Origin: Spongilla lacustris
Lineage: Eukaryota; Porifera; Demospongiae; Spongillida; Spongillidae
Direction: 5' to 3'
Assembly: GCA_949361645.1 (NCBI GenBank)
Contig: OX442419.1
Coordinates: 3,941,757 to 4,005,756 of the forward strand
DNA: 64,000 bases
Program-made: the position numbers and the translations under genes
Shown here: positions 7,840-47,115 of the stretch, one piece after another
Layout of the letters: each line of letters opens with the position of its first letter
Position numbering within the stretch: position 1 is the stretch's first letter
The notes under the pieces: model-generated
Database searches by the model: none
Told to the model about the DNA's origin: nothing
The model's input: the letters and a program-made list of their open reading frames with translations, nothing else

Positions 7840-9828
7840 GACAACATTAAAGCTCTGATGGCTAACCGACTTATTGCCTTAGACAAGTGTCCTGGAGTAC
7901 GACCCATCAGCATTGGAGAGTGTTTGCGTCGCATTATTGGTAGAGTGATGGCCCTAACCACAGGTACTGATGTTGAAATGTTGTGTGGAACAGATCAGTT
8001 GGCATCAGGTTTGAAAGCAGGCATAGAAGGAGCAGTGCATGCAATGATGGAGCTTTACACCCAGCATTCTGGTAATGGATGGGGGCTGTTGTTAGTGGAT
8101 GCCAAGAATGCTTTTAACATGGTGAACCGAGTTGCTGCCTTGTGGAATGCTCGCGTGTTATGGCCTCGATGCAGCCGTTTTTTGTTCAACACCTATAGAG
8201 GATTTGCTAGGCTTGTCTTAAGAGGATCTGATGAATGTCTATTCAGTAAGGAAGGTGTTACTCAAGGTGATCCTCTATCCATGCTCATCTATGCAGTTGC
8301 ACTATTACCACTTGTTAAGTCACTGAAGGTCAAAGAGAACAGGTTGCAGACCTGGTATGCAGATGACTCAGCTTGCATTGGTAACATCAATGAGGTTCGC
8401 TCATGGTATGATCAGTTGGCTGAGCAAGGCCCAGCTTATGGATACTTTCCTGAGCCCAAGAAAAGCTGTCTGATTGTTACCCCTCAATTTGAAGATGAGG
8501 CCAGGATATAGTCTTTGGTGATTTGCATGGGTGTGCAGATAGTGAACGGACATCGCTTTCTTGGGGGTGTTATTGGAGACTGCATGATAGCAGATGATTT
8601 TGTGAGGAAGAAGGTTGCAATGTGGGTAGATTGTGTTGTGAAACTCTCCAAGGCAGCTACCAAGTCACCACAAGCTGCTTATACTGCTCTCTCCAGATCC
8701 CTTCAGTGTGAATGGTCATACCTGCAGCGAGTCATGCATAACTGTGGAGGTGCTTTTGTCCCACTGCAAGATGCGATTTTAAAGGCTTTCTACCCAGCAT
8801 TGTTTGAAGGAGATTTGTCAGATGCTGAATGTAAACTGTTTTCTTTACCAACTCGTTTTGCTGGCTTGGGAATCAATAATCCTACTGAGACAGCATCATC
8901 GTCCTACCACACCTCTACCCATAGAAGCTATTAAGGGATGTGGTGAATTTAGCTCTACCTGTCACCTGGATGCAATCAGCAAGGCAAGATATGAGACGCG
9001 AAAAGCACTTGACGAGGTTTCCAAACAGAAACTAGAAGCCATTCTTGCAACTCTTTCACCAGGCAGACAACGTGCAATCATGAGGGTGGTTGAGGGCAAA
9101 ACATCCAGCTGGTTGACGACTCTGCCACTCCAAAGTTGCCACTTTGATTTGGCTCCTGTACAGTTCAGAGATGGCCTAGCTCTACGCTATTTGCGACATC
9201 CATCTAATCTGCCAGCCAAGTGTGATGGTTGTGGAGCTGATTTCACCCTCCAACATGCCCTAGACTGTAAGAAGGGGGGACTTGTTATACTACGCCACAA
9301 TGAGATCCGTGACTGCCTTGGTGACCTTGCCAGTCAGGTGTGGCCCCAAGTTATAAAGGAGCCTATTGTCAATGAGACTACTGCCACCTCAAGTGATCCA
9401 GGACTAAGGCTTGACCTGGGAATCAGAGGTGTTTGGCAACCACAGGTGGAGGCATTGTTTGATGTCCGTGTCATAGACACTGACGCCCCATCACACTCCT
9501 AATGCCATTCTTGAGTCAAGCTCACTGGAGAAGAAGAGAATGTACAAAAAGGCAGTTGAAGACAGAAGAGGCACCTTCACCCCATTTGTCCTTTTCGTGG
9601 ACGGACTACTACACAAAGAGGCTAGTCACTTCCTAAAGCACATGGCCACTGCTCTGTCTTCCAAGTGGGACAAAGCTTATTCCATTACCAGCAGCTATGC
9701 ATGTCAGATCACGGCTTGCTTTTGCAGGGGTTCGAGCTGTGAGCCTCTGTCTTAGAGGATCCCGCACCAAATGGAGAAGTGGGCTGGGGTTTGAAGATGA
9801 TGCACCTCTGGCCTCATTCATGGAGTAA
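7840..9828 (+). pseudogene. Non-LTR-type reverse transcriptase with zinc-knuckle/nuclease C-terminus, 5'-truncated and broken
   Basis: The first block (to 8,510) carries reverse-transcriptase motifs: ALDKCPGVRPISIGE, LLLVDAKNAFNMVNR, the QGDPLSM block and the catalytic YADDSA. A second block (8,525–8,920) is the thumb-like region (GHRFLGGVIGD). A third (to 9,502) has a CDGCG…HALDCKKGG…RHNEIRD zinc knuckle, then LRLDLGIRG…ALFDVRVIDTD, the arrangement of a PD-(D/E)XK-type endonuclease as in R2/NeSL-like retrotransposons. The last block ends in SLCLRGSRTKWRSG. The frame is broken near 8,507, 8,527, 8,915, 9,495 and 9,699. Two of the breaks (8,527 and 9,699) coincide with the hexamer TGCATG. The 5' part of the element is missing. 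A fragment of a related 3' end lies at 48,640–48,880. Exact clade is uncertain. Confidence 0.85.
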
Positions 9829-9829
9829 A

Positions 9830-10486
9830 TTTATTGACTTATTATTTGTCTTTTTAATTACTTATCATCTAATTGTATGTATTTCATGTTTTTATTAAAT
9901 TAATTAAGTATATGAAGAAAATAAACTACTGCATGCAGAATTAAGTTGCTCATTTATCCATATGCTCCTGTAGATCCACCTCGTTATCTTAGCGGTGCTG
10001 CATGTGATGTGACAGCTTGGACAACAGAATTAAAGGAATGTTTATGGCAAGCATTAATACTGAAGTTATGATGTTACATCTCCATGCCCGCTGCCCGCAT
10101 GCGCACTGATTAAAAAAAGGGTGTTACCGCAACACACTTTGGGGTGTTCGTACGACTGTTTAGGAATAACACCCCATGGAGGGTAGTGGTAAGTGCTAGT
10201 GCCAACACCCCTGATGCCGGTGTAGCTAGTACACTCTAATGGGTGGTGACACAGGTATAAATAGTTCATTGGAGTCACTGATCGCGCAAAGTAAGTTAAA
10301 ATACTTCTGCAAAGTGGCTTGCGGGAGTGCGTGCGAGTGCTGTACTGAAATGTGTGAGTCTCCCGCGAAATGCGCGAGAGTTGGCGCTTGTTTGCACCAA
10401 CTACCACAGAGATGTGAAAATCCCTTATACTATACACTGTAGATATTTAAATAGTGGACAGATGTAGATCCTCCTCGATAGTATTA
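9830..10486. other. RT-element 3' flank and intergenic DNA
   Basis: An AT-rich tail (attttattaaattaattaag) at 9,840–9,930 probably belongs to the RT element. The rest shows no gene. A short block (ctcctgtagatccacctcgt) at 9,964–9,983 has an inverted match at 31,277–31,300. Confidence 0.5.
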
Positions 10487-10605
10487 CTAATATCCTCTTG
10501 TGGCAAAGTGCGCATGATGGCCATGATGACCGACATGATGTGCAGTATGTCCTATGTGTCCATGATGTGCAGTATGTCCTATGTGTCCATGATGTGCAGT
10601 ATGTC
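10487..10605 (-). CDS. His/Gly-rich secreted repeat protein, C-terminal part of interrupted gene
   Basis: On the minus strand, in the frame described for 15,694–15,954, this stretch continues the 9-residue repeat (HGHIGHTAH). It ends in a His-rich tail (VGHHGHHAHFATRGY) and a TAG at 10,487–10,489. It is separated from the upstream part by the Ty3 element at 10,606–15,689. When the 4-base duplication is counted once, the two parts are exactly in frame. The protein has no recognised enzyme domain. Its role (metal binding or extracellular matrix) is inference from composition only. Confidence 0.5.
10530..10605. repeat. 27-bp minisatellite, left part
   Basis: About 2.5 copies of a 27-bp unit (tgtcctatgtgtccatgatgtgcagta), continuing at 15,690 beyond the LTR element. 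The period is nine codons. Confidence 0.9.
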
Positions 10606-10740
10606 TGTAGCGGCCTCATCCATTCCATCTATATAGCAGCAAGGTTACAAAGACTGACACGAATACTCACTACAGACACCTATATATGTAATCATACGCA
10701 TGCGCACATAGCAATTATACAGTTTCCAATACCCGTTACA
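10606..10740 (-). repeat. 3' LTR of element 1
   Basis: 135 bp, matching 15,555–15,689 base for base as far as I can read. It ends TG…CA in both orientations. It includes a NRF1-like word acgcatgcgcac at 10,697–10,708. Confidence 0.95.
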
Positions 10741-10758
10741 CAGCTCCCCCTTTTCAGG
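10741..10758 (-). other. Polypurine tract of element 1
   Basis: On the minus strand AAAAGGGGGAGCTG lies directly before the 3' LTR, the position used to prime plus-strand DNA synthesis. Confidence 0.8.
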
Positions 10759-10774
10759 GAGTGGGTCCACACAC

Positions 10775-11677
10775 TCAAATATCGTCCGGTAGACTCCATG
10801 GGTTTCCGTATCTGTCCGGCGGTCTTCTGTTTCTCGCAGATCTCCTCAATACCTGTTGCGCCTCCTCATTTGATTCTGCCCCATCTGCTTGTCTCTCTTC
10901 CCCGTCTGAGTCACCCAATACGGACAAATGATCCCCATCTCTTATTTGTTCTACGTTCCTCTCGGGTTCGGCCACCGGCCCTTGTCTTACTCTCTCTCCC
11001 CTCTCCGTGGATTCATCCACAGTATAATCCTCTTCTTCGTCGCCTTCATGATTTTCAGCGGTGTTATCCCTACTGTCTTCTTCGAACGGCTCAGGGAGTT
11101 GCCTTCGTTCCGAGACTAACTTAGAAGGAGCAGGCTTTAATCTGTTGAAATGAACAACATACTTTTTCCTCGAGTTAGAGCAGTCAACGATACGATAGAC
11201 GCACGGGCTTACCACTTTTGTTACCTTAAATGGCCCTCGCCATGGCCTGTGGAACTTCTTGCATTTGTTCCTCGGCACGGCTGGACTGTGAAGAAATACC
11301 AAGTCATTTACCTTGCATGATGTTCCACGGCACTTTAAATCATAAACAACCTTTTGGCGCTGCTGTTTTCTACTTGCATATTTCTGAACCCACTGATAGC
11401 TCTGTTGCAGCCGTTCTATTAATGCAGTACTGTACTCATCCACTGACTGATACTCTGGAGTAGGAATATTGTACAACAAGTCTTCAGGCAACCGAGGGTC
11501 ACGGCCGAACATAGGCTGGAATGGTGTAGTTGCTGTGGTTTCATGGGCGCTTGTTCTATAAGCAAACAAAAGCGAGGGCAGAAAAAGATCCCAATCACGT
11601 TCCCTTTCCAAAACAGTCATGCTCAACATTTCCAGTAATGTTTTGTTAAACCGTTCTACTAACCCATCTGACTGCAT
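10775..11677 (-). pseudogene. Element 1 integrase C-terminus and acidic tail
   Basis: This is the end of the Pol polyprotein, in a different frame from the core. It contains the end of the integrase catalytic domain (GLVERFNKTLL, with the third catalytic acid), the host-DNA-side region (AYRTSAHETTATTPF), and the GPY/F-like module (WRGPFKVTKV…YVVHFNRLKP). A long acidic, Arg-spotted tail ends RRSARNRRPPDRYG. The frame break from the upstream integrase lies at 11,674–11,678, at a CATGC/GCATG word. It is separate from the rest of Pol only because of that break. Confidence 0.9.
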
Positions 11678-14607
11678 GGGGGTGGTAGGGTGTAGTTCGT
11701 GTCTTCCTTACCCCCAGCAAAATACAAATTTCTTTTACCAGTTTGGACTCGAAGTTCTTTCCTTGGTCAGTATGTATACTGTCAGGTACTCCAAAGCGGC
11801 ATATGAACTCGTTTACCAGTACCCTGGCAACAGAAGTGGCCTCCATATCTCTTAGGGGAAAAGCTTCTTTCCATTTGGTAAAGTAATCGCCGATAACCAA
11901 AATATAGCGATATCCTCGAGGGGTTTCAGGAAGGGGGCCTAAAATATCCATTGCCACACGTTCGAGTGGCCTTTTAGCAAAACACGCTTCCATAGGTGCT
12001 CTTCCCCTCGGCGGCGATTTTCTTGAATTACAAATTGAACATTCATGACACCACTTCTCAACGTCTTTCCTCTGCCCCGGCCAGTAGAATCGAGCGCGAG
12101 CTTTCTCCAGAACTTTACGAGCCCCAAGATGACCTCCCGCAAGTGAATTATGCAGGCCCTCTAATACCTCAGAAACTAAATTCGCCGGCAGGACCAACTG
12201 CAAATGTGCGTGCAAGCCATTACCTTCGACATCTTGCCACTGCCTATATAACATGCCATCTTTAAGTACCAAATACTTCCTCTGTACCCAAAGTGACTGC
12301 AACTTCCAATTAGCTTCAACCGGGCAGGAAGCAGGTAGGGAACCGGATGCTAGCCATTTAATTGCCTCTCCCAAGGCTGGGTCCGCTCTTTGCCTTTCTC
12401 GAAGCTCTATCTCTGTCCACACAGGCAAAAACTGTGCCCCTGTGGACATGCACCCAAAGCTAACATCGGAATCCTCCATTTCACTGGATCCGAAATCCAG
12501 TCCACACTGTTTGCAGTTGCTACGAGAAAGTGAATCAGCATTGCCATGCTGCTTACCCGGTCTGTGGATGACTCTATATTGAAACTCAGCGAGACTTTCA
12601 AGCCAGCGCGCCACCTGACCCTCTGGCTCCTTGAAGGAATGCAGCCATTTCAGACAGTGATGGTCTGTACGAAGTTCGAACTGTCGTCCATACAGGTACG
12701 GACGAAAGTGATGCGCAGCCCACACAACAGCCAACATCTCGCGGCGAGTTACACAATACTTACGCTCAGTTCTGGATAGCACCCTACTCGCGTAGGCTAC
12801 TACTCGTTCCTTGCCATCCACGACTTGGGATAGCACAGCTCCTATTCCTTCCCCACTAGCATCCGTGTCAAGAACAAAGTCAAGCTTAAAATCAGGAAAG
12901 ACCAGAACAGGAGAAGTCATTAGCTGCTTTTTTAGTTCAAAGAATGCATCATTGCAGCTGTTGAACCATTCCCACGATGCTTCACTATTGGACAAAGCGT
13001 GCAACGGGGCAGCAATCTGTGCAAAATTCTTAATAAAACGTCGATAATAGGAGGCTAATCCAAGGAAACATTTCAATTTTCTAACGTCGTTGGGCACTGG
13101 CCAGTCTGCAATGCACTGGATCTTATCAGGGTCAGTTTTAATTCCCTCTTTACACACCACGTGACCTAAATATTTCACACTGGACTGGAATAAATGACAC
13201 TTGCTTGGTTTCATTTTCAACCCTGCCCCTTTAAGACGCAAGCACACTTCTTTGAGCCGCTCGAGGTGTTCTTCCACTGTCGCACTGAACACAATGATAT
13301 CGTCTAGGTAGACCAAGCATGTGGACCAATGCAGACCTGCTAGTACGTGCTCCATCAAGCGTTGGAACGTGGCGGGCGCATTACAAAGACCGAATGGCAT
13401 TACCCGGAATTGGAATAACCCATGTGGTGTAACGAACGCAGTTTTTTCCCTGTCCCCAGGCTTAACCTCTACTTGCCAATAGCCAGACGCTAAGTCCAGC
13501 GTAGAAAAATAGCAGGCGCGTCCAAGAGCATCCAGAGTATCGTCGATCCTGGGCAAGGGCTGTGCGTCCTTGCGTGTCACGTCATTAAGCCTACGGAAAT
13601 CAACACAAAATCTAGTTGACCCATCTCGCTTCTTAGCAAGCACGATAGGCGCCGCCCACGGACTGCTACTAGGCTCGATGACTCCCCGAGTCAACATGGA
13701 ATCGAGTAACTTACGGACTTCATCCCTCCGATGGTAGTGAAGTCTACGTGGTTGCTGGCGTATTGGGCTAGCTCCCTCTGTGTCTATTCCATGGTACACT
13801 AAGCTCGTCCGACCAAAGTCGTCATCGTTTTTGGCAAAAATGTTCTCAAACTCCATTAACAGGTGCATAGCAGCATCCTTCTGGGCTGCAGACAAGTCGT
13901 GTGCCCCAGCAAGCATCTTCTCTGCCCACGTCATGTCTCGGTTTTTCAAAGTCGAAGGGTGATTGACTGCGTTTTTTCTGGCCTCCCGCCATTCAGCCAC
14001 AGGTTTCAAGACCCCGACCTTCTCGTCCTTATGCACTGTCACCGGGGCTGGATTGAGATTAAGGATTTCGACCATCATGTGATCCGAGTTGGCCTTCATC
14101 AGTGAGTGGGCAACCAACAAGGAATGCTGGTCATTAAATTTCATCAGTGGCTCCATGATGACATCTGATGACATGGTGGTGTTCCCGCTGTGTACCGTCA
14201 CAGGTAACCGCATGCGGCACGAGGCAGGAATTACAATGGTCTCCGACATACAACTGCACCTGACTCCCATTGTTGCATTCTGATGCACACATTGTTACAG
14301 ACTGGTCGCCTCCTAACAATACCCGATTATGTAGGTCAATTATGCAATTGTGTTGACACAGAAAGTCGGCACCCAAGAGACAGTCATGGGTGAGCTGTCT
14401 AGCCACTAACACCATATGCTTTTTAACCAATCCCCCTAACACAACATCCAATTCCACTTGTCCCAATACATCAAGTGTTTCACCATTAGCTACCACCACC
14501 GCCCTAGTAGGTTCTTCCAGTGGAGCACTTCCATTTGGAGACGAGCCCAGTTCCCTCCACACCTTCTCTCCAATCAACGTCACCCCAGAACCCGTATCCA
14601 CCAACAT
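11674..14607 (-). pseudogene. Element 1 Pol: protease, RT, RNase H, integrase core
   Basis: The protease lies at 14,600–14,290, with catalytic LVDTGSGVTL and the flap-side HDCLLGADFL. The frame then shifts near 14,280. RT follows with FCVDFRRLNDVT, FSTLDLASGYWQ and catalytic CLVYLDDIIVFS. RNase H has LDTDASGEGIGAVLS and the TDHHCLKWL and HGNADSLSR motifs. The integrase has an HHCC zinc site (H…H…CHECSIC) and the core (MDILGPLP…HTDQGKNFES). The domain order RT–RH–IN defines Ty3/Metaviridae. The RT to integrase part is one 880-codon open stretch, so decay is limited to the protease junction and the integrase end. Enzymes would copy and integrate the element. The nearest relative in the window is element 2. 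Confidence 0.93.
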
Positions 14608-14639
14608 TCGGGTCTTGCGACCGGAAATACACCCGTTAA

Positions 14640-15464
14640 CTATATTAAAGAAGAACTTACAGCTGCCGTTCCCGCGGGACTAGACTGTTTCTTTCGCCGT
14701 GGACAGAATCGTTTCGTATGTCCCGCCTGCCCACATGCCCAGCACACAATTCTCCTCTTTTCCTGTCCCCGGAACGGTTGGGTTTCACCTAGTTTCCTCC
14801 TCAATCTCTCAGTCAACTCCGAGAGCCGTCTTATTTCCATCTCGGACTCTTCAAGTTGCTTGGCTATGTCCTCTGCTCTTCGACCAGACGACACACTCAC
14901 TTTATGCGCATGCAGCAGCAGCCGTGCTCCTGTCCCTTTCACTAGGTTCCAACGCCTCGGCGACCGTTGCCCGTTCCTTCTGAAATGTCCTTTGAGCAGC
15001 TTCAATCGTCCAAGGACTCAGGGTTCTCCCGCATGAGCTTCATCTGCATGGACGAGGAACGTAAACCCTGAATAAATTGACGTCTCACCACTTCTAGTCG
15101 CTGTCCCCCGGACCACTGAGGGTAGGCTTTGTCCGCGAGAAACCGCAGGGCGCCTACAAACTCCGTCAGTTTCTCACCAGACGACTGCACCCGCTGTTGA
15201 AACCTGCAATGAAACTCCAATTCATTACCTTCTGGGTCATACTGCCGGCGCAGGCACTGTACGACTTCGTCGTAGTCGGTAGAGTCAACGAGTCCCTGCA
15301 TGCTGCACCACTACCCGAAAAGGCTCGTCCTCCTACAATGGAAACAGCTCGCTAGTCCTCTTCTCATCTGGTATTTTTGCCTCGAGCACGTACCTTTCGA
15401 ACCTTCTTATCCACAGCGCGAAGTCAGCTTTCTCCGTGAACCGTGCCGGTGGCCGCAGACTCAT
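14640..15464 (-). pseudogene. Element 1 Gag with CCHC knuckle
   Basis: Gag starts near ATG 15,464 (MSLRPPARFTEK…WIRRFERYVLEAKIPDEK), aligning with Gag of element 2. The frame is open further upstream through the primer site, so the true start is uncertain. The middle has LEFHCRFQQRVQSSGEKLTEF, FLADKAYPQW and QFIQGLRSSSMQ. The end has a predicted coiled-coil-like Glu/Arg stretch and a single zinc knuckle (CWACGQAGHTKRFC). An in-frame TAG (about 15,328) and frame changes at 15,298–15,303, about 15,006 and 14,908–14,913 break it. Two of the frame changes fall on GCATGC. Gag would form the particle core. Confidence 0.88.
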
Positions 15465-15534
15465 TCGGACCGCGCGAGGAGTGACCTCGCCCCCTGTGGG
15501 ATGACTTTGCACGTCCTCACTACCCAGGGACGTG

Positions 15535-15552
15535 ATCCCACTTCTGACACCA
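15535..15552 (-). other. Primer binding site of element 1 (tRNA-Leu type)
   Basis: On the minus strand TGGTGTCAGAAGTGGGAT lies two bases inside the 5' LTR. It is complementary to the 3' end (with CCA) of animal tRNA-Leu of the …CCCACTTCTGACA type, from knowledge of tRNA sequences. Confidence 0.8.
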
Positions 15553-15554
15553 TT

Positions 15555-15689
15555 TGTAGCGGCCTCATCCATTCCATCTATATAGCAGCAAGGTTACAAA
15601 GACTGACACGAATACTCACTACAGACACCTATATATGTAATCATACGCATGCGCACATAGCAATTATACAGTTTCCAATACCCGTTACA
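15555..15689 (-). repeat. 5' LTR of element 1
   Basis: 135 bp, matching the 3' LTR at 10,606–10,740. It supplies promoter and transcript start on the minus strand; no clear TATA box was singled out. Confidence 0.95.
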
Positions 15690-15868
15690 TGTCCTATGTG
15701 TCCATGATGTGCAGTATGTCCTATGTGTCCATGATGTGCAGTATGTCCTATGTGTCCATGATGTGCAGTATGTCCTATGTGTCCATGATGTGCAGTATGT
15801 CCTATGTGTCCATGATGTGCAGTATGTCCTATGTGTCCATGATGTGCAGTATGTCCAATGTGTCCGCC
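15690..15868. repeat. 27-bp minisatellite, right part
   Basis: Six or more near-perfect copies of the unit also seen at 10,530–10,605, separated from it by the LTR element. Three shorter gatgtccgt units follow to 15,915. Confidence 0.95.
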
Positions 15869-18870: not shown

Positions 18871-19162
18871 AATCAAAAACTTCTCTATTGAGAAAGTGAT
18901 TGGTGGTATGTAGGATTGGTGGTGCAAAAAGCAAGGAAACAAGGTACAGTATGTTAAAGTGAGGTTTGGTAGGATCCTACAAGGCTACAACTATAACAGT
19001 CCTACATTTGCAAATAGGCTTCTTCATTTGCAAATTCAGGACTGTGAGTTGTAGGATCCTACCAAACCTCACTTTAACATACTGTACCTTGTCTCCTTGC
19101 TTTTTGCACCACCAATCCTACATACCACCAATCAATTTTTCTCGATAGAGAAGTTTTTGATT
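18871..19162. mobile_element. Palindromic MITE, TA-flanked (Tc1/mariner-like)
   Basis: Two arms of about 115 bp (18,871–18,985 and 19,045–19,162) are near-perfect inverted copies. The central 60 bp is itself partly inverted (acatttgcaaat…atttgcaaatt). The ends read aatcaaaaacttctctat on each strand, and each side is flanked by TA (18,869–18,870 and 19,163–19,164). TA flanks fit a non-autonomous Tc1/mariner-type element. A diverged half-copy lies at 57,480–57,600. Confidence 0.85.
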
Positions 19163-20784
19163 TACTTGTTGAATCTAATTTGATTCATGCTTGAACGAAG
19201 CTAACGGCTGCATTAGTAGCCGGGGGATTGACCACAAGATCAGTTTAAACCTCCGAAAATAGGCTCTTTTCACATTGGTCAAGGCTTTGAAAAGCACTGT
19301 AAATTTAGTGGAATTCTAGCTGGATCTTTGTTTCGGGCAGTTCATTAATAATTTACCCCCAAATTTTGCTCGCATAGACGTACATTAGACTCATCGTAGA
19401 AGATTCTGCCGATACCTTTCGGAGTAAGCACGTTTGTAACAACGTAGCTATGCTGCACTGTTTCTGATCTTACAAGGAGGTTCGCCCATTGTGTTACGTA
19501 TACGTGGCGAACCGGCCGGGCAAATAGAATTCGAATCCAATCGGTTGGCTATCTATACAACACAAGCAAATATATTTCGGAGTTTCCTTCGTCAAGCAAA
19601 GAATCTAATCGCTATAAGATACAAGCGTCAAGCACTGCACAATAACAAAATAACAAAAGTCCGGCTGGTCTGCTATAAATTGAGCCATGCCCATGGAACC
19701 GCCTCGCGCCTGCATGCGCGTGTACGTGTACGTACCTACCTGTACAGTAAATAAATTAATATTATCGGCCAAAAAAGTGTGTGTGTGTGTGTGTAGGGGG
19801 GGGGGGGGGGGGCAGCCCTGTTGCACACAAATAAAAGTTGGTTTCCTACCATTCTGGCCTGCAAATAATCATGCAGGTGACTGTGGCTCGAGCCACTCTG
19901 GCACTCGAGTAGAGAGTTGCTGACCATGCAGCCGCCGGCATGCACTGTCTGATTAAATCCGTCATTCATATGCATGTATATATCCTCATAACGTATATTC
20001 ATATACCGGTGTAATAGGAATATATGTCCCCCCTAATTAGGTACTTCAATAAATTGCGTTTGCGTGGGCGGAAGCAGGTGATCTATAATACGTCAAAAAT
20101 TGTGACCGTAATTTCGATTACTCGACGAGTGGCTTAAGAAGACGCGCGCTTTGAAAAGTTGTTTGGAAGGTATTTAACACTTTATTAGTAGATTTCAGAA
20201 GAAAAGGGGTTGCACAGTACACTAATGGTGTCTAAATGTTAGCTAGCATACGGCGTTATTTTGTGTGCCTCGTTGATTTCTATGGTGATCTATCGCGATT
20301 AGTTATTCCCTAGTTTGTTAAGGCACTAACTTGAGAAAGCGTTTTCCATGTTTACTAGGTCCTAGTCTATATCAGGATACAATTTCATGAGCTTTGGATG
20401 GTGCACAAGGATTCATTTATCGCCGCAGGCGTTTACTGTTGGATTGCTATAGCTTTACATAATGTTGCTTAAACTGGTATTTATATGTTATTGCCCTGAG
20501 AATTAGACTTGTCTTTTGTATTTTCAATGCACAGACAATCTATTTCTGTTTATGTGGCAAAGAAGTTTGGGATGTTCTATTTAATACACACCGAATCCGT
20601 CAAGGCACGCGTTATACATAGAAAATATTATACAGCATGGACCCTCATGTAATTAAAAACAGCTGTATTATCAATATGTGATGGTGCACACACAGCGTAT
20701 TTTTCAAGACAGTATATTCATGTTAGTATATCCTAGCTATGCATTAACATTGAGAAATGCATTCTATTTGTATTGTTGTTTAGA

Positions 20785-23634
20785 ATGAGGACTGCTAATG
20801 ATCTGAGGAACCATCTTTTAATGTTCAAAAATGATATTGATGAGCATTACAAACTGCTTGTTCCTGAAATAAGGAATGGATTAGTGCTATACATTAATAT
20901 TGACCTGGCAAGTCTTAACAAGCAGGAAACAGTGAGGTTGGTTTCAAAGCTGGTACCAAATGATGATGCAAACTTAAAGGCATTATCCCAGTCCATTACA
21001 CGTTTATTAGCATCAGTGAAGGACATGAAGAAATGTCTTAGTAGAACTTGGGATAACTTAGTATCATTTTTGAATCAGAAATTCACAGTGCCTTTGAACT
21101 CATCAAGTACTTTGCATGTATTGTCATTGCCACACTATACTAGTGGTGAAGGTGGACACACCTCATGTCCAGTATCTAACACTTTAATTTCCGATTGTCA
21201 TAAATGTGCTAACAGAAGAATAGCTCTTAGAAGAATGTTTGCTTCTAAGGTTTCTCTTAAGGCGAAGCTTTTGAATAAGCATAGCACTAATAATAAACGA
21301 CTAAGTCAAGCCTTAAGTAGGAAGAAAGCAATTGAAGCTGTGATTCGTTCCAAATTAACAGCTGCAAAGAAGGAGATAAATGCAAAAGATACACTCATTA
21401 GGAAGTTAAAAAATGATAATGTAGTATTGAAACATGGAAGCAGTCAATCCGAAGTAAGAAGTCTGAGAAGATTGCTGGCTGTTATAAGATCTAAGTTCAG
21501 GAAGTTTAAGATATCTCATACACATTTGGTACAAGTATTGAAAAGAGAGAATAATGTATTAAGACATCAAGTGCACAATCTTAAAGCTGATAATGATATA
21601 CTTCAATCGGAGTACAATTCTGACGTTTTAATGCAAACAGAGCCAAAATACATAGACACTAAATCTGATGGGAAATCCTATAGTACATCATGCCGCAAAG
21701 CCATTTACTACTGCCTGGAATATCATGTACCCGTAACCTGCATATGCCCCGTTATTGAAGTGATTTTAAATCAAATGGCGGGTTTGAAAGTTACTTCTCT
21801 CCCTGAACCATCTACGGTCAGTTATTTAGCATATGAACTTGAAGTACTAAGTGATTTGCAAGTTGGTGAAATAATGTATAATGGTAATAATATAACACTT
21901 TCGTGGGACTCTACAACCATTAATGGAGAACATATAAATGAAGTACATATAAGTGTTTCTTTAGTACCACCAAAATCATATGTGTTAAGCTTAAGATCCC
22001 TCGCCGGAGGTACAACTGAAGACTACATGTCTCATATTTGTGATTCCATAAACTCTATTATTACTACATATGCCGCATATCATGGAGTAGACTATCTTCA
22101 TGCCAAGTCCAGGATTATTAAGCATTTGAAGAACACCCTCAGTGACAGAGTTGCAGTAAATCACTGTGTAGTGCAACAGCTAGAATCGGCATTTGAAGTA
22201 GAATTATTAGAACTAAAGTGCAATATTCATCCTCTTGATGGGATTGCAAAGAAGTGTACGAACATTTTAAAGGTATATGACAATCAAAATAATGTTACAA
22301 GTGACACATTTGGCAGGGACTGCTGTGCTGTTAATTTTATTATTGCTATGAACAAAATGAGATTTAAGCAAGGAAAGGGAGACCCATCTGGTTTTAAGCA
22401 ATTTTTACGACAAAATAATATCAAACAAAGTATTATAATTCGGTATGTTGGTAATCGTTTTCACGTACTGTTTCATCTTGCCGGTGTTTTGTATTATCTA
22501 AGAACAACGCTAGTGATATATTTGGAAAAAAGTTGTAATAATAATACAACTTTACGAACATCACTGGTGAAAGACTTGAGAAACATTAACATTTTATTAC
22601 AATTGCGTGCACTTGGAATCATAGGGAAAATGGTCACAGGACCATGGATGCATGAACTATATACTAATTCAGGTATTTCAAACCTTGATAGCATAAACTA
22701 TATAAAAATGTGTTTAGAGAACCTGAATGCATTAAAAGAAAACCCTTTAATGATGTTGCAGGCAAACACTGATACGTTTGGTGTATCCTTGGATGTAGGT
22801 TCTGATGCTGTGTTAAATGAACTTCAAAATTCTGCCACAACTGAGCAAGATAAGTTGGTATTAAACGATATTCTAGTACAGCTACTTGAAGGTGTAATAT
22901 GTGTAATAAAGAAACAGTTGCATGACTACCTAGAAGGTACGTTAACGAATCTATCACCATCCATTGTCCATCAAGCATCATCAGCACCAGTCCACAATAT
23001 GTTTGCTGAACATACCCTTGGCATGGCTGACTACCTTTATAGAAAAGCTTCTAACATTAAAGTAGGGTTCCTTGATGGAAAAGTGAAATGTAAAATTAAT
23101 GGAACAATGCAGTGGCTGTGTGCACATTCTCAGGACAAGCAAGAAGATATAGTCAAATTTTGCATCAGACAAGGTCAGAGAGTGAAGTTAGTTAATAAAC
23201 AACATGAGCACAATGTTTCTATATTACAAGATCAGAGAATTAAAGTTAAGATTCAAAAGAAGGAGAACAGTTTAAGGAGGAAGATAGAAAAGAAGTTGCA
23301 ATGTGTTGCAGAAAAGGAATTAGATTTATCAAATGAGTTTCAAGATATTTCAGAGTGTAAAAAGAATGTAATATTAAGCGTTTTATCAAATGAGTCTGTT
23401 TTGAATGGTTTGTATTTTGAACAGCTGTGGTACGTTGATAACCAGAATGTGCTTTACAATGGACACATCATATGTGTAAAGCAATCCAAGAAGTCTCAAG
23501 TTCCTAAAGTAGTTATTACATACTGGAAGAATGATGAATGCGAAGAAGAAGGAGATAATGTTACATTAACATTATACGGGCTATTAGCTGATTATATCAT
23601 GGGAGACCTAAATTTAGATGTAATGTTAACTTAA
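20785..23634 (+). CDS. Transposase-like protein, unrecognised family (~949 aa)
   Basis: One open frame from ATG 20,785. A polypyrimidine/AG acceptor ends at 20,783, and the same arrangement recurs at 48,287 in a related copy, so an upstream exon is likely. Residues 1–140 hold an NGLVLYI motif shared with that copy. Residues ~140–280 have a CHKC pair and a Lys-rich coiled coil. The core has NITLSWDSTTINGEHINEVH (Asp375), LKCNIHPLDGIAKKC (Asp485) and PVHNMFAEHTLGMADYLY (Glu742). This order could form an RNase H-fold D/D/E site with a large insertion before the Glu, as in hAT and KDZ enzymes. A second basic coiled coil lies at ~800–860. I know similar uncharacterised proteins in invertebrates, but not a named superfamily. 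The neighbour is a convergent Ulp1/PHD gene. DNA transposase is inference. Confidence 0.6.
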   Translation: MRTANDLRNHLLMFKNDIDEHYKLLVPEIRNGLVLYINIDLASLNKQETVRLVSKLVPNDDANLKALSQSITRLLASVKDMKKCLSRTWDNLVSFLNQKFTVPLNSSSTLHVLSLPHYTSGEGGHTSCPVSNTLISDCHKCANRRIALRRMFASKVSLKAKLLNKHSTNNKRLSQALSRKKAIEAVIRSKLTAAKKEINAKDTLIRKLKNDNVVLKHGSSQSEVRSLRRLLAVIRSKFRKFKISHTHLVQVLKRENNVLRHQVHNLKADNDILQSEYNSDVLMQTEPKYIDTKSDGKSYSTSCRKAIYYCLEYHVPVTCICPVIEVILNQMAGLKVTSLPEPSTVSYLAYELEVLSDLQVGEIMYNGNNITLSWDSTTINGEHINEVHISVSLVPPKSYVLSLRSLAGGTTEDYMSHICDSINSIITTYAAYHGVDYLHAKSRIIKHLKNTLSDRVAVNHCVVQQLESAFEVELLELKCNIHPLDGIAKKCTNILKVYDNQNNVTSDTFGRDCCAVNFIIAMNKMRFKQGKGDPSGFKQFLRQNNIKQSIIIRYVGNRFHVLFHLAGVLYYLRTTLVIYLEKSCNNNTTLRTSLVKDLRNINILLQLRALGIIGKMVTGPWMHELYTNSGISNLDSINYIKMCLENLNALKENPLMMLQANTDTFGVSLDVGSDAVLNELQNSATTEQDKLVLNDILVQLLEGVICVIKKQLHDYLEGTLTNLSPSIVHQASSAPVHNMFAEHTLGMADYLYRKASNIKVGFLDGKVKCKINGTMQWLCAHSQDKQEDIVKFCIRQGQRVKLVNKQHEHNVSILQDQRIKVKIQKKENSLRRKIEKKLQCVAEKELDLSNEFQDISECKKNVILSVLSNESVLNGLYFEQLWYVDNQNVLYNGHIICVKQSKKSQVPKVVITYWKNDECEEEGDNVTLTLYGLLADYIMGDLNLDVMLT

Positions 23635-23916
23635 CCTTATTAACCTTGAAAAGTGTATATATCTTCTATTTTATGCAATTATGGCATCAATATCTTGAAT
23701 ACTTTCACGGGAACTGCATGGAGAAGTCAAGCGGTCACAGTTTTTTATATCGCGGTCCATTGACATTGCATACATTGTTAGTTACCAGTGACGCAATGTT
23801 TGAAATGCTATAACTTTTGAAGTAGCAATCTGATTTCCGTGGCAAAAGCATATTTTTGATGCATTTAATTTGCTCTGTTAGGCTATGTATAAAAGTTTAA
23901 GTTATATAAATTTTCA

Positions 23917-24160
23917 AAAATTTATTGAAGTACCTACCCTAATAATTGTCCGGCCGGACAATTATTCCTAGGAAGCATTGTCCGCCGGACACGTCTTCCT
24001 AGGAAGGAGTGTCCCCCCCGGACACTGCCTCCTAGGAACAGGTGTCCGCCTCCAGGAGTGTGTGTCCCCCAAACTTGACCTTCAATAAGTGTCCGCCTGA
24101 GGGCCTCCAGGAGTGCGTGTCCCTCAAACTTGACCTTCAATAAGTGTCCTACATGTAACA
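23917..24160. repeat. Right-side terminal/subterminal repeats with CCTAGGAA palindromes
   Basis: 23,917–23,945 is the inverted copy of the left-end block (aggtacttcaataaatt). Beyond it, three units of about 30–35 bp alternate tgtccgcc…ggaca hairpins with cctaggaa (23,967, 23,998 and 24,031). Then two direct copies of caaacttgaccttcaataag follow (24,071 and 24,125). Such arrays are typical transposase-binding regions. Confidence 0.65.
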
Positions 24161-38226: not shown

Positions 38227-39321
38227 ATGGCCGGCAACTCCCAGCCCAACTGTAGCGTGTCGGACATCGAGCTCAAGCTAACCGCCTTATTCGTCCTTAG
38301 TTCGACGGGAGGGGCAGCCGCCCTAGTATGCCTGCTAGCCGCCGTGTTGGTCATCGTCGCGAGGCTGCACAAGCTCTTCGCCTACCGCCTTGCCCTCTAC
38401 CACGTGCTTATCGGACTGGTGAGTGGGACTGTCTGTGCGTGCGAGTTGCTCTCCGTTTTGTACTACGACGATCCGGTTTCGGTTCATATTCCATGCACTG
38501 CAATAGCTTTTTTGATGCAGTACTCCCTGTGGATGAAGTTGTGTTTCACGGGCTGGGTGACCATCCATCTCTTCTGCTCCGCCATCTGCAACCGAGACCT
38601 CAAGAAACTCGAGATCCTGTGCATTTTCGCGTCTCTATTGATACCGGCGGTGATGTCCATCGTTCCCGTGGCATCACCCTCGTCCTCGTACGGGCTAGCC
38701 GGCGCGTGGTGCTGGATTAAGAGCATGAACGAGTGTTCTTCGAATGCCCAGTCAGAGGGCGTCGCCGCGCAGCTGACGCTCTGGCACGGCCCCGCGGCGG
38801 GAATGCTGGTCCTTGTTACTGTAACCCTCCTCACTGTGGTCGTTACTCTGGCTTGCAGAATGTATGCGGAGAAGGTGGACCGGGACAGGGCCGTTCTAGT
38901 CATCAGAAGGCCGACTCACACGAGTGACCTAAATCAGTTACTGCCTCTACTTGCTTACCCGGTCACGTGGTGTCTCATGGTAATTCCTTCCTTGCTGGAA
39001 GGTGTCTACCGCGCTTACTCCATTCCCAGGTGGGGCTTCGTGTTAGCTAACGCATTCTGCACCCCCGCCTGGAGTCTGGCTGCAGGCGTAACCATGGTGA
39101 TTCATGTTCTACTTGTGCTGGGCAACAGAGCGTCAAAGACCCTCGGGGAAAGACGTGCACGGTATGGGTCCATTGATGACGACAAGGACTTTGGGAGCAG
39201 TGCTGCATATTACAGTACGGAGTCAGTGAATTGGAGCAGCTCGTTTCGGTCCTCCACCTCTTGCGAGCTAGCCAATAGGAATACAGGTACTTGTTACCCA
39301 GGACATCAGCAAATTTTGTAA
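38227..39321 (+). CDS. Seven-transmembrane receptor (cAR/GPR157-like), 364 aa
   Basis: ATG 38,227 sits in a good context (ccaaaaATGGCC), and the frame is open without introns to 39,321. The extracellular N-terminus is short with an N-glycosylation site (NCS). Seven hydrophobic segments follow, at about residues 20–47, 55–82, 95–122, 130–150, 190–213, 240–262 and 272–296. The pair WMKLCFTGWVTIHLF and SYGLAGAWCWI resembles the transmembrane 3 and second extracellular loop region of Dictyostelium cAMP-receptor-like and GPR157-like receptors. The C-tail (from ~300) is Ser/Thr-rich and cytoplasmic. It would signal through G proteins at the plasma membrane; the ligand is unknown. The coding region is much richer in G+C than all its surroundings. 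Splicing beyond 39,290 (aatacaggt) cannot be excluded. Confidence 0.85.
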   Translation: MAGNSQPNCSVSDIELKLTALFVLSSTGGAAALVCLLAAVLVIVARLHKLFAYRLALYHVLIGLVSGTVCACELLSVLYYDDPVSVHIPCTAIAFLMQYSLWMKLCFTGWVTIHLFCSAICNRDLKKLEILCIFASLLIPAVMSIVPVASPSSSYGLAGAWCWIKSMNECSSNAQSEGVAAQLTLWHGPAAGMLVLVTVTLLTVVVTLACRMYAEKVDRDRAVLVIRRPTHTSDLNQLLPLLAYPVTWCLMVIPSLLEGVYRAYSIPRWGFVLANAFCTPAWSLAAGVTMVIHVLLVLGNRASKTLGERRARYGSIDDDKDFGSSAAYYSTESVNWSSSFRSSTSCELANRNTGTCYPGHQQIL

Positions 39322-39913
39322 CTAGAGTCAATTGAGGTGTTTAATTGACGCAGCGCGCAGGTGAAACATCAGGCAGATATTAAATACATAGTCACGTGGT
39401 AAGGAATAAATAATACGTTTCCTATAATTCCATGCATTAATGCTACCCTTATTAATTCGACACAGCACTTTTTAGTCCGCTTCCATTTTCAGCGCAGTTT
39501 TTTCTACCCACTATACATTAACACAACTCCGTAGACGTAGAATTCAGCTGTGATAATGTGGGAAGTGGGAACCCGACACGTGTGGCTAAACACGTCACTT
39601 TTTATCTATACTGTTAATTATTATCCATCTCAACATCTGGCCGCCATGGCCTTTCACACATCATTTCGTCATTAATTTGCATGGTTCCACCCTCACATTG
39701 TTGGCATAGTCTCGTACCCAGACCCTAAAATGTATGGATTCCATCATGACTTGACCGCACTTATATTCATATATTAACGTTTACCGGTTACGGCGGACTC
39801 GATTTCTAGCTGATCCCATGTACGTACATAACGTACTGATGCTAACGTGAGTGAATCTGGGAACAAGACTATGTTTGTCCATAAGCCTATAAAAGCTTTG
39901 TAATGTTCATGTG
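39322..39913. other. Intergenic downstream of receptor gene
   Basis: No gene recognised. 39,838–39,913 (gatgctaacgtgagtg … ttcatgtg) is duplicated in direct orientation at 41,210–41,290, and that copy lacks the hAT insertion. Confidence 0.6.
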
Positions 39914-40943
39914 CAGGGTTGCCGAAGACCAGTCCGGCATGACAGGTCGGCCTGCCAGGCCGGACATTTAGCTTGGCCTGGCAGGCCGGACCGTGACCTG
40001 ACAGGCCGGCAGGCCGGGATCCACCCACTTATTATAATAAATTATTAATTCATTTCGCGATGTCTATAGCTATATATGGGACAGTTTCCGAGATAACTTT
40101 CTATGTTTTATAACATTATAAAATAATCGTGTTATAACATTTAATTGAATTGCTGTATCTGCCGAACAATAAAGGCTATCGACTTCCTAGTTCCTATTTT
40201 CAACACTTCATACTACACCATTGTCCTATGGTAAAATACATTTTTGTGTCTTGCACTTGCTCAGTATCATCGTTGAAAGGTTCGATACCCCACCAGGTTC
40301 AAACCCAACATAACTTCTGTAGGAGTAATCAAATCGCTTCAAATTCGGTTTGTAGGTATAGAGAGGTCCTATATGGCTATATCGGCTATATATCGACCGT
40401 TACGGAGATATAGTTGAACAAACTATACGTGCACTTTTTCCCGCTCGATACGCGGCAATGATATAATCACCAGCTCCCATACTTTGAGCGGGACGCGATT
40501 TGCCCAAATCATCGGCGCGAATCGAGCGGGAAAATGTGCACGTACGGTTTGTTCCACTGTATCTCCGTAATAGGACCTCTCTACTTACAACCGAATTTGA
40601 AGCGATTTGATTACTCCTACAGATACAGAAACTGAGTCTGAGATACATATAACATGCAGTGATGCAAACAGCGCGCTTGCTATCTAAATACTTGTAATTA
40701 ACCATGCATTGTGCTTCAGCATGACACATGCCTCCAAACATTGAGGGAGAAGGTTCCATCTCTGGCGCTGTTGAATCAGCTTAGCTCGCGAAAACACCCG
40801 CTCGGATAAAGCTGAAGAAGTATGAATTTTTAATAAATTGTTTAATAACATCAATTTATCCGACCTGAGGCCGGCCTGGCAGGCCGGGGCTGTCAGGCCG
40901 GCCAGTCACAGGCCGGACCCCGGCCTGACTTTCGGCAACCCTG
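39914..40943. mobile_element. hAT-type non-autonomous element A
   Basis: The ends are CAGGGTTGCCGAA… and …TTCGGCAACCCTG. Each side is flanked by TTCATGTG (39,906–39,913 and 40,944–40,951), an 8-bp target duplication as made by hAT transposases. Subterminal blocks contain many aggccgg/ccggcct repeats. No transposase reading frame was seen. A 306-bp palindromic sequence is nested inside. A relative lies at 58,500–59,875. Confidence 0.93.
40317..40622. mobile_element. Palindromic MITE nested in hAT element A
   Basis: The arms begin ctgtaggagtaatcaaatcg and are inverted at the right end (…cgatttgattactcctacag). They run almost to the centre (cccgctcgat…atcgagcggg), so the whole 306 bp can fold. 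No convincing target duplication. Confidence 0.75.
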
Positions 40944-41285
40944 TTCATGTGTACATGCACCATTATAGATACATGTATTAGGGTGTTGCATGCGGTAGAC
41001 CATTTTAATACTACGAAGGGAAAGATCGGAGCTTTGTAGACTAAGAACTATGCCCGCATGCACCTGGCGTAACACTCATGACCTCAAACCAAGGTTTTGA
41101 ATCGCCTCCTCTTATTTGCAGACTGCTTGTATCACTGAACTTTCAATTTTTCCTATTCTCGTTCCCAGACTCACTTGCGTAAACGTTATCACATGCACAT
41201 AACGATATCGATGCTAACGTGAGTGCGGAATCTGGGAACAAGACTATGTTTCTCCATAAGCCTATGAAAGCTTTTTAATTTTCAT

Positions 41286-42136
41286 GTGTACATGCATCAT
41301 TCTGGTTGTGGTACAGTCAATTAAAACGTTCGAGAACATTTTGCACGGATTTTCCTAGCTTAGAGGTGCATATACATGCGCGTATAGTGAGTGCATATGT
41401 GTGCGTGTGTGTGTGCAGCGTGTGTGTGTGAGTGTAGAGAATATTGGATATGTATTATATAGTAAATGGGAAGTTCATTTATTTACTGACATGGTTTTAA
41501 CAAAATTAGATACAAGCATATAAGAATTAATTAAAACCTGCATGTGCATCCACAAGTAACTATTTGTAAGCACTGCTTGTGTTAATACAGCCGTTTTTTA
41601 TACACTGCATGTAGTTAGGATTATAGGGCAATATCGAATTTAATCAATATGTTACGATGCAGACCGGCCTAACTGAATTTGGCAATTAAATAGGGCATCA
41701 TTGCATTCCATGCACTCAGGCTTTATTTCCAGCCTAAATCGAAACTACTCATAGCGATAGCGGCAGTGCTACAGCCACCGCAGGCGCTCACTGCGCTCAC
41801 TGGAGTTGTGTATATGCTAATCAGCTAGCCTATATGTAGGTGCCGAAAGAAATTTTTCGAAAGCTAAACTCAGCAATTTTATGAGTACCCGAAATTGCCG
41901 AATGGAGCAAAATGAATGCTTGAAAACAATGTTTTTACCAAGCGTAAGGCATGATAGGCATCTACTTAGTAATTATTTTAAAATGTAGTTTCTCATCAGC
42001 CCGTCCGCATCGACTACTCACAACAGCATCAAAGTAAAGTGCCACAGCAAAAAGCATTTTCCAAACACAGTACAGCAATTGTAATAGCCACCATTAATAA
42101 TTATTTAACGTACGCGGCGCAAGTGAGGCTAAGCAT
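41286..42136. other. Intergenic
   Basis: A short TG-rich stretch at 41,398–41,432. No gene recognised. Confidence 0.5.
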
Positions 42137-42191
42137 TCAATTTCGACCCCATGTATTGCATATATTAGCCGCGCCACATAAACGTTGTACG
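42137..42191 (-). CDS. C-terminal end of ORF interrupted by Ty3 element 2
   Basis: The minus strand continues the reading frame of 47,240–47,529 across the insertion point (…LYV|QRLCGAANICNTWGRN) to a TGA at 42,137–42,139. With the TACG duplication counted once, the two parts sum to 345 nt, an exact multiple of three. Confidence 0.45.
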
Positions 42192-42311
42192 TGTGACAAA
42201 GACCAGCTTTAATCACCAGACTGATATTACGTACACTTACATTAGTATATATATACACAATAAATACTACTGCGCATGTGCGTGCATGATGTAATAACTG
42301 CGTACGCTACA
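42192..42311 (-). repeat. 3' LTR of element 2
   Basis: 120 bp, matching 47,116–47,235. On the minus strand it includes tgcgcag-type and tatatatatac words. Confidence 0.95.
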
Positions 42312-42334
42312 TTACTCCCCCTCCCTCCTCCTTT
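42312..42334 (-). other. Polypurine tract of element 2
   Basis: The minus strand reads AAAGGAGGAGGGAGGGGGAG immediately before TAA and the 3' LTR. Confidence 0.8.
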
Positions 42335-42347
42335 GAATGGTTCGACA

Positions 42348-45300
42348 TTACACATCATAAATATTCTGTCCCAGTTTATCGGGCTTTCTGCTGCTTCGTG
42401 TTGATCTTCTTGGTTGTCCTTCTTCTGCAACAATCGGCTCAGTTATTTCTTCATTATCACCAACAATTTCTTCTCCCGGTGCAGCCTGCTGTTGCTCGAC
42501 CTCCCCGTCCTCTTCGACTACTACTTCCTGGGGCTCAACAGGAACCTCCTCATGGTCCACTGGATCGTTCTGACGCTGATCAGGTCGTTCCCCAGGAACA
42601 ATTTCAATTTCAACGTCATCTTCCTGCTCGCCATTACTCGAACGCTGAGGGGGCGGTACTTCTTGTTCTTCATCCCTCTTTGACGAATGTACGTAGGGTT
42701 TCAGCCTATCAAAGTGTACGACACATTTCTTTCTGGGATGATCTCTGTGTTGGATTTTAAAGAGTACTTTCCCTAGCACATCTATCACCTTATACGGGCC
42801 CTGCCAGTAGCGATGAAGCTTCGCCGACTTCCCTTTAGGCACAGCTGGACAATGGAGCCACACGTGATCACCAATTGCATACAGTGATCCGTTTGTCGTT
42901 CTGTCATATAGAGCCTTCTGACGTCGCTGTTGTAGCTGCAGACGGTTGCGAACAAGCTGATAAGCCTGCTCCATGCGAAACCGCATGTCCTGAGCGTACT
43001 TGTTCACCTGCATAGGGGAAGAAGGAAGACGAAACATTACATCAGCAGGAAGACGCCCTTCTCGTCCAAACATCAAATAGAATGGCGTGCAGCCAGTAGA
43101 TTCCTGCACACTAGTCCGGTATGCCATCATCACCATTGGAATATGTAAGTCCCAGTCACGTTCATTCTCTGAAGCAGCCATACTAAGGAGGTTCAACAAG
43201 GTACGGTTGAATCTCTCGACCAAACCGTCTGATTGAGGGTGGTAAGGGGTAGTTCTCGTTTTGACCACTCCCAGTAGCTGGCACACTTCCTTTAGCAAAG
43301 CAGATTCGAAATTTCTTCCTTGATCGGTATGAAGAACGTCTGGTACACCAAACTGGCACACAAAACGCGACACAAATAGTTCAGCCACAGTCCCAGCTTC
43401 CATATTAGGCATGGCGTACGCTTCAACCCATTTTGTAAAGTAGTCCCCCACAACCAATACATACTTGTTACCTCTGTCGGTTAGTGGCAGGGGGCCCAAT
43501 ATGTCCATGACAACTCGTTGTTGTAGTGGACACCCGGTAAGGTCGCTCTGTAATGGGGCTCGTCTTTTTGTTGATGGAGATTTTCTAGACGCACACATCT
43601 CGCAACCCTTGCACCAGTCTTCTACGTCCTTGCGTTGGCCTGGCCAGTAGAACCTAGATCGAATCTTTTCCAGTGTCTTTGTCATGCCAAGATGGCTACC
43701 ACTTGGTGAGTCATGACATTCCTGTAAAATGGTTTTTACCAAAGCTTTCGGTAGCACAAACTGCAGATGCTTATTAAGCCCCTTTCCAGGAACGTCTTCC
43801 CATCGCCTGTAGAGAACTCCATCCTGAAGCATAAGGTGGCTACTCTGTGCCCACAAGGTTTGTAACCAGTAACTGCCATAACTGGGAAATTTGGTGGGAA
43901 CATTTCCATTTACAATCCATGCGGTAACTTGCGTTAAATCTGGATCCGACTGCTGCTCCCGCTTTTGATCGAAGAATGGTAGAACAGGTACCCAACTACT
44001 CATCGCCTGAAATGCCTCCGTAACACCTTTTGTGACGTCATTGCTTTCTTCTTTCTTCATCTCTGATAGGACCGCAGTTGCCTCGGAATCTTGACGGCCA
44101 CATTGCTTGCAGGGCAGTCTTGACAGTGCATCTGCGTTGCTGTGTTTCAGCCCAGGCCGATGTTGAATAGTGAAGTCGTATTCTGCAAGAATTTCAAGCC
44201 ACCGAGCAATCTGGCCCTGAGGATCTTTGAAATTCTGCAGCCAACGGAGAGAATTATGGTCAGTTCGAATAATAAACCGCCGCCCCCAAAGGTACGGACG
44301 AAAACATTTCACTGCCCACACCAAAGCCAACATTTCCCGTCTAGTGGCACAGTATTGCTTTTAAGCTTTCGACAAAACCCTGCTAGCATATGCAATGACT
44401 TGCTCGTGTCCTTCATGTGCCAGGACGGCACCAATACCCTCCTGGCTGGCATCAGTATCCACGACAAATGTTCGGTCAAACTGTGGAAAGGACAAAATGG
44501 GTGGTAGTAACAACTTTCCCTTTAAACTGGAAAACGCTGCTTCGCACTGTTCTGTCCATTGCCAAGATTTCGTCTTCTCCGTCAATGCATGCAGGGGAGC
44601 TGCTATCTCGGCAAAGTTCTGGATAAACTTTCTGTAATAAGAGGCAAATCCAAGAAACTGGCGCAACGTTTCGTGATTGTTGGGCACTGGCCAATTTTTA
44701 ACACAACTAGTTTTCGCAGGATCAATCTCAATGCCTTTCTCAGACACCACGTACCCCAAATATTGAACACTTTTGCGAAATAGTTGGCACTTACTAGGTT
44801 TTAGTTTCAAGCCATGCAGCTTCGTTTAACCTCCTGAGCACATCTGCATGCCAGGCGAGTAAAGTGTTCCTCCACTGTCTGGCTAAAGACGATGATATCG
44901 TCCAGGTAAACCAAGCAGGTATTCCAACTTAAACCAGCTAATACCAAGCCCATCAACCTTTGAAAGGTGCTGGGTGCATTGGTCAACCCAAAGGGCATTA
45001 CACGGAACTGGTGGAGACCAAAAGGGGTAACGAACGTGGTCTTCTCTTTGTCAGAAGGATCCATCTCCACCTGCCAGTATCCGCTGGCCAAGTCAATTGT
45101 AGAGAACCATTTTGCTCCTGCAAGGGTATCTAATGCATCGTCGATTCTGGGTATGGGGTGTACATCTTTTTTTGTTACATCATTGACACGACGATAATCG
45201 ACGCAGAACCTGAATGAACCGTCTTTCTTCTTAGCCAGAACTATGGGCGATGACCATGAACCATCAGCTGGTTCAATGATTCCTTGCTCTAACATTCCCT

Positions 45301-47114: not shown

Positions 47115-47115
47115 A

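Follow-up and report, generated by a model that had tools for sequence, protein, structure and literature searches.

Short insertions matching the reverse complement of their own target in retroelements of Spongilla lacustris, and their possible origin as transposon excision footprints

The locus and its retroelements

The window, a stretch of 64,000 nucleotides from the sponge Spongilla lacustris (assembly GCA_949361645.1, contig OX442419.1; C5:3941757-4005756), holds three retroelements, one with a reverse transcriptase domain (the RT element) and two of Ty3 type, that are interrupted by short insertions of a regular form (Table 1). An earlier note on this DNA, made from the letters of the window, had pointed to seven frame breaks in these elements, each coinciding with the hexamer CATGCA or TGCATG where a lone CA or TG was expected, and had offered three causes: the excision footprint of a transposon with a 2-bp CA target, slippage of CATG, or an assembly artefact. 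It described the hosts as three unrelated retroelements; there are indeed three, although “unrelated” is a little strong for one RT element and two Ty3-type elements.

Table 1. Retroelements of the window and the insertions found in them. Positions are those of the window; “relatives” are copies of the same family in this genome.
Feature	Start	End	Strand	Remarks
RT element	7780	9905	+	RVT_1 domain 7780-8508; 7835-9905 aligns to relatives at about 92-97% identity; limits approximate
ATATA, 2-base (TA or AT) doubling, RT element	8506	8510	+	Window copy only; absent from 16/16 relatives; 13 bases before the 8,524 site
TG-CA-TG footprint, RT element	8524	8529	+	17/17 relatives spanning the site have 4 bases fewer
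TG-CA-TG footprint, RT element	9698	9703	+	29/29 relatives without the 4 bases
Ty3-type element 1	10534	15865	-	RVT_1, RNase H and integrase domains; repeated ends near 10606-10740 and 15555-15689; outer limits approximate
TG-CA-TG footprint, Ty3-type element 1	11673	11678	+	20/20 relatives without the 4 bases (13 close, 7 distant)
GCATGC (with next base, CA-TG-CA), Ty3-type element 1	14908	14913	+	13/13 relatives with sequence on both sides without the 4 bases
GCATGC (with preceding base, TG-CA-TG), Ty3-type element 1	15298	15303	+	15/15 relatives without the 4 bases
Ty3-type element 2	42348	47200	-	RNase H, integrase and zinc-knuckle domains; 44600-47200 compared with relatives; limits approximate
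CA-TG-CA footprint, Ty3-type element 2	44813	44818	+	20/20 other rows without the 4 bases
GCATGC (with preceding base, TG-CA-TG), Ty3-type element 2	44846	44851	+	19/20 other rows without the 4 bases; distant L088 differs in its own way
CT-AG-CT footprint, Ty3-type element 2	46294	46299	+	Eighth 4-base insertion of the window, beyond those of the earlier note; 4/4 aligned relatives without the 4 bases

Copies of each retroelement family were sought within the same genome (248.6 Mb in 51 contigs) and aligned piece by piece, the comparison being restricted to mobile-element families. For the RT element, 40 of 526 candidates were scored and 29 of 40 other rows used. For Ty3-type element 1, all 38 candidates were scored over 11,450-11,900 (29 of 37 rows used, 13 of them close) and all 17 over 14,700-15,500 (15 of 16 other copies used). 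For Ty3-type element 2, 40 of 73 candidates were scored over 44,600-45,060 (20 of 39 rows used), and four copies were compared over 45,060-47,200. An insertion is called rare when it is present in one to three rows, and the tally covers 13 alignment pieces, seven with the window copy and six without it. Rows L053-L068 of element 1 (some of which make up separate pieces, X and Y), L088, L103 and blocks with partly gapped rows were kept out of the tallies. The rows are not all independent, since they include the near-duplicates L048/L049 and L033/L034.

Close relatives exist for both Ty3-type elements. The nearest copy of Ty3-type element 1 is 0.32% apart over 2.8 kb, and the window copy of Ty3-type element 2 has four private substitutions in 2.1 kb.

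Insertions in the window copies

At each of the seven sites of the earlier note, relatives whose sequence crosses the site are four bases shorter than the window copy, with L088 at 44,846 the only deviation, and they hold the predicted lone TG or CA where the window has the hexamer. At 14,908, L102 has the stretch deleted and L103 is broken; neither is among the 13 relatives counted there. The net gain of eight bases that the note had derived at 44.8 kb reappears as a match length of 461 bases in the window against 453 in 13 copies, and at 8.5 kb both the doubled pair and the 4-base insert are present in the alignment. An additional break suggested at 14,275 fared less well: the block 13,401-14,699 is 1,299 bases long in the window as against 1,317 in six of nine end-to-end copies, and lengths alone give no 4-base insert.

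Length differences of other kinds also occur. Over that block Ty3-type element 1 is thus a net 18 bases shorter in the window than in those six copies, one further copy (C3:3614997) exceeds them by four bases, and elsewhere the window copies have private deletions of 17, 11 and 32 bases. The two ends of this element carry a 27-base tandem repeat, with 2.7 copies on one side (10534-10605) and 6.6 on the other (15689-15865).

A general rule for 4-base and 2-base insertions

The 13 pieces contain 61 rare insertions: 23 of four bases, 12 of two, 11 of one and 15 of other lengths. In 17 of the 23 four-base insertions, a dinucleotide, U, is turned into U-rc(U)-U, where rc(U) is its reverse complement. 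The units are TG/CA in 11, AC/GT in two, AG/CT in two and AT (ATAT) in two, so that the CATG insertion described earlier is one case of a wider rule. Sixteen of these were flagged by a script and the seventeenth (L043 with L051) was counted by hand, an overlapping insert in L045 having displaced the alignment. The form is expected in 1.3% of random tetramers and in 11% of tandem duplications, and the binomial probability of 17 in 23 is about 1e-27 under the former and about 3e-12 under the latter.

The 2-base insertions follow a related pattern. In ten of the 12 the doubled pair is self-complementary, TA or AT nine times and GC once, with one of the ten inside a short ATAT run; the remaining two double TC and GG. 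The corresponding tandem null for two bases is 23%. In eight cases a shift of at least two indicates that the whole pair is doubled, and the other two were read directly from the alignments. The unit is therefore two bases, and a one-base unit (T to TAT) is ruled out.

Whichever dinucleotide sits at the site, the middle pair is its reverse complement, which argues that the middle bases depend on the target and do not derive from the end of an element. The first cause offered in the earlier note, with CA as the 2-bp target and an invariant CATG, does not stand as worded, since the middle pair varies with the target (TG, CA, GT, AC, AG, CT) and self-complementary pairs mostly gain two bases; an excision footprint as such is nevertheless the best supported of the three causes. 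One 6-base insertion, TGT-ACA-TGT in L052, has the same form with a 3-base unit, and the 4-base inserts in L023, L028 and L047 are exact reverse complements of the adjoining four bases. The inserted bases are thus the reverse complement of the flank in the 17 sandwich cases and in these three inverted copies, as in the hairpin-type footprints of maize Ac/Ds. No 4-base deletion is found among the 42 rare deletions listed, and no clear extended target motif among 26 footprint sites.

Clustering and recurrence

The insertions are concentrated in a few copies. A copy on contig C14 (L045 with L094) has eight such inserts against three private substitutions in 3.6 kb, and the window copies in the same alignment set have eight against 24 in 6.1 kb; all other rows pooled have 10 inserts against 493 private substitutions in 97.8 kb. 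There are none in 47.0 kb of the 29 other RT-element rows, and none in the copies closest to the C14 copy, which are 0.11-0.12% apart from it.

Some sites were apparently struck more than once. An identical TG insert is found in the non-sister copies L043 and L051, with L046, the sister of L051, lacking it and a GT event one base away in L045. Likewise, L094 and L097 are non-sisters with an identical TA insert that is absent from L095, the sister of L097. Unless they were moved by gene conversion, inserts at the same site in non-sister copies are repeated hits. Clustering together with recurrence would be expected if a transposon hopped locally, and would be expected of a targeted nuclease too.

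A model for the origin of the insertions

The favoured explanation, to which we give about an even chance, is that the inserts are excision footprints of a cut-and-paste DNA transposon with a 2-bp target duplication. It starts from what is observed: insertions of two classes, private to single copies and clustered, in a genome that contains a 2-bp-duplicating family; hairpins, the distance at which they open and the former presence of such an element at each site are what the model supplies. On entry, the transposon would duplicate two target bases, U. Excision would cut the element at its ends, and each flank, terminating in U, would be sealed as a hairpin. If the hairpins were then opened two bases off the tip, one end would read U-rc(U) and the other rc(U)-U, and the two would anneal by their longest overlap before ligation. 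For a unit that is not self-complementary (TG, CA, GT, AC, AG, CT) this overlap would be rc(U), and the product U-rc(U)-U would be four bases longer than the empty site. For a self-complementary unit (TA, AT, GC) the overlap would comprise all four bases, leaving UU, a gain of two. A single hairpin and overlap rule would thereby account for both the +4 and the +2 class.

A more specific version can be put forward tentatively, and is rather less likely to hold in all its parts. It calls for an undescribed, locally hopping transposon or a tamed transposase whose cuts, staggered by 2 bp, fall mostly at TG/CA and TA. It would seal the flanks with hairpins, to be resolved almost deterministically, so that the target alone would set the scar (+4 for TG-like, +2 for TA-like targets). 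It would strike some retroelement copies in bursts, with scars sometimes outnumbering substitutions.

Candidate sources

Elements that duplicate 2 bp exist in this genome. The Ty3-type relative L057 contains an 809-bp insertion with inverted CTCAGGG ends and GT on each side, and comparison with the empty site in L058 gives a duplication of exactly 2 bp. The CTCAGGG end occurs 231 times genome-wide at up to 2 mismatches, against no occurrence of a reversed control pattern. At two ends per copy, this would correspond to about 115 copies. The 116 exact ends form 39 pairs by adjacency; 26 of these could be read at both flanks, and the outer two bases agree in 26 of 26. At the 65 sites read for this family, TA is found 21 times, CA/TG 17, AA/TT 14 and other pairs 13, and the preference for TA and TG/CA matches that of the footprints. 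The longest paired copy, of 5.0 kb (C2:10639007-10644051), lacks any match to DDE_Tnp_4, the domain sought as a mark of Harbinger/ISL2EU transposases, among the 139 listed (of 196 candidates, 150 were scored).

No other copy is seen to hold a 2-bp element where the window has a footprint, among the candidates scored, which for 11,673, 14,908 and 15,298 in Ty3-type element 1 were all of those found. In a C6 copy of Ty3-type element 2 (L107, L108), about 1.9 kb of other DNA, starting ATACCCCGTTTACACG, replaces about 100 bases that span both 44.8-kb sites. Other large insertions were seen in the two Ty3-type families. One of 3.7 kb in a C1 copy (L109, L110) has a duplication of 2 or 3 bp, and one of 4.75 kb in the C20 copy of element 1 has a 2-bp overlap at CC, judged from coordinates only. 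A 3.6-kb insertion in a C11 copy of element 2 (L111) was set aside, having no transposase-like frame by eye among the nine listed for it and no clear 2-bp duplication. Searching the window for inverted termini bordered by identical 2-bp flanks gave several inverted repeats, none linked to the footprints.

Comparison with known systems

The nearest parallel is with the hAT family, in which palindromic, flank-copied footprints of maize Ac/Ds (P-nucleotides) are explained by hairpin-capped flanks followed by end joining (PMC5873905, PMC4561436). However, target duplications in hAT elements are usually 8 bp long (PMC12730594), or 5 to 7 in some groups, against 2 bp, with one 3-bp case, here. Moreover, a single Ds site gave 28 different footprints (PMC5873905), whereas one product dominates in the sponge. 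Palindromic, flank-derived footprints as such are known, and what differs from Ac/Ds is the 2-bp unit with its one dominant product.

Other groups share the short duplication. The target of Tc1/mariner elements is TA. These and the Stowaway elements have 2-bp target duplications and small footprints, but their extra bases come from the element ends (PMC4561436), unlike the present ones, which follow the target and are most commonly TG/CA. Among the animal CACTA-related elements (TRC/EnSpm, CMCT), SmTRC1 shows 2-bp duplications in seven copies out of 14, elements from two insects show them too (PMC1636069), and PlavakaA likewise duplicates 2 bp (PMC12730594). The CTCAGGG family shares this trait, which is common to other groups and so not diagnostic; its ends differ from the CCC of animal TRC, the CACTA of plants and the TGT of PlavakaA. 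PIF/Harbinger/ISL2EU (PHIS) elements have target duplications of 0, 2 or 3 bp (PMC12730594), but excision of mPing is generally precise (PMC4561436). A footprint of the form U-rc(U)-U was not found reported in the open-access literature surveyed by title and abstract opening.

Weighing the explanations

Several observations weigh against excision of a transposon. To place eight footprints within 3.6 kb of a single young copy, hopping would have to be very local and repeated, and the next 1.3 kb of that C14 copy have the common length, with no net insert. No footprint common by descent was found among the copies compared. The sandwich form is absent from six of the 23 four-base insertions, namely the three inverted adjacent copies and three (L020, L101, L113) that match nothing, and the two ATAT cases have the form yet depart from the overlap rule, which predicts a gain of two; they may be repeat growth, and 15 of 23 remain without them. 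Blunt joining would be expected to give a doubled TG or CA, and none is seen. No 2-bp element sits at the RT-element or element 2 footprints among the 40 of 526 and 40 of 73 candidates scored. As for the CTCAGGG family, AA/TT makes up 14 of its 65 sites but none of the 26 footprints (p = 0.008), which suggests that this family itself may not be the source. As two bases were viewed outside each of its ends, a duplication of exactly 2 bp is drawn from one empty site, and no transposase has been tied to it, CACTA-type transposases not having been searched for.

The same scars might be made by repair of double-strand breaks without any transposon, if a very short foldback or a switch of template copied the last two bases in reverse before the ends were joined. 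This is unlikely, though to be taken seriously. Three of the 4-base inserts are plain inverted copies of their neighbour, the families have rare deletions of up to 45 bases, and foldback at breaks in yeast produces short inverted templated insertions of adjacent DNA, mostly of about 5-34 bp and possibly down to 2 nt (PMC11724301). The yeast insertions, however, are variable in length and primed by inverted microhomology (PMC11724301), whereas the unit here is fixed, nearly always at two bases, with no base loss, and foldback does not predict the preference for TG/CA and TA or the division into +2 and +4. A still smaller probability attaches to repeat-directed mutagenesis, in which a tamed or stray transposase-like nuclease would make bursts of cuts at the TG/CA and TA steps of chosen retroelement copies but insert no DNA, a defence similar in effect to repeat-induced point mutation (RIP). 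The bursts speak for it, above all the C14 copy with its untouched nearest neighbours, as does the recurrence at two sites if gene conversion is set aside. Against it, most copies of the same families are untouched, the supposed restriction to repeats comes from a comparison of mobile-element families alone, and no such nuclease was found, no search for one having been made.

The two remaining causes named in the earlier note fare worse. A sequencing or assembly artefact in this and a few other regions would agree with events that sit in single loci, none of them found to be shared by descent. It is improbable, given that no private 1-base indel, the usual mark of poor sequence, is among those listed for the window copies, L045 and L094, that equally young copies in the same assembly lack such inserts, and that the inserts recur in non-sister copies under a rule tied to the target's own complement; to our knowledge, no chemistry writes U-rc(U)-U. 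Microsatellite-like slippage of CATG or TG draws some support from the window, which is mildly rich in TGCATG (88 against 67 expected) and in U-rc(U)-U hexamers generally (ratio 1.21, against 1.03 for control words). It is nonetheless very improbable and is rejected as the cause: the relatives hold a single TG or CA at the seven sites, leaving no tandem unit to slip on, the dinucleotides GT, AC, AG and CT yield their own complements, the TA cases are likewise unexplained, and 4-base deletions are missing from the list.

Other features of the window

A young DNA transposon lies at 20038-23936, with ends TAGGTACTTCAATAAATT and a 953-aa (amino acid) frame that has no Pfam match above the cut-off. 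Its flanks carry 7-bp duplications, which rules it out as the source of the footprints. There are 15 copies at 99-100% identity, that of the window included, and relatives in Biomphalaria and Nymphon. Seven of 11 copies including the window's have the full 7-bp target duplication, two agree in the six visible bases, and for two the ends could not both be read. Some near-identical copies of 20700-23700 (C10:7099582, C15:3089562) are four or six bases longer, sizes that scars would give, as judged by length alone. Inverted-repeat stretches are found at 54259-55470, with 33-base units repeated in its arms, and at 60710-61872, 40322-40617 and 18871-19162. An Rfam search gave no match.

Implications

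If the excision model is true, the scars provide a record of transposon excision that can be counted. Any genome rich in young repeat copies can be screened for the change of U into U-rc(U)-U, or into UU where U is self-complementary, and the outcome would, if the model holds, reveal the transposases that close their flanks with hairpins. The bursts, which gave one copy more scars than private substitutions, would then point to a powerful cause of frameshifts that has drawn little notice, in mobile elements and perhaps in genes as well.

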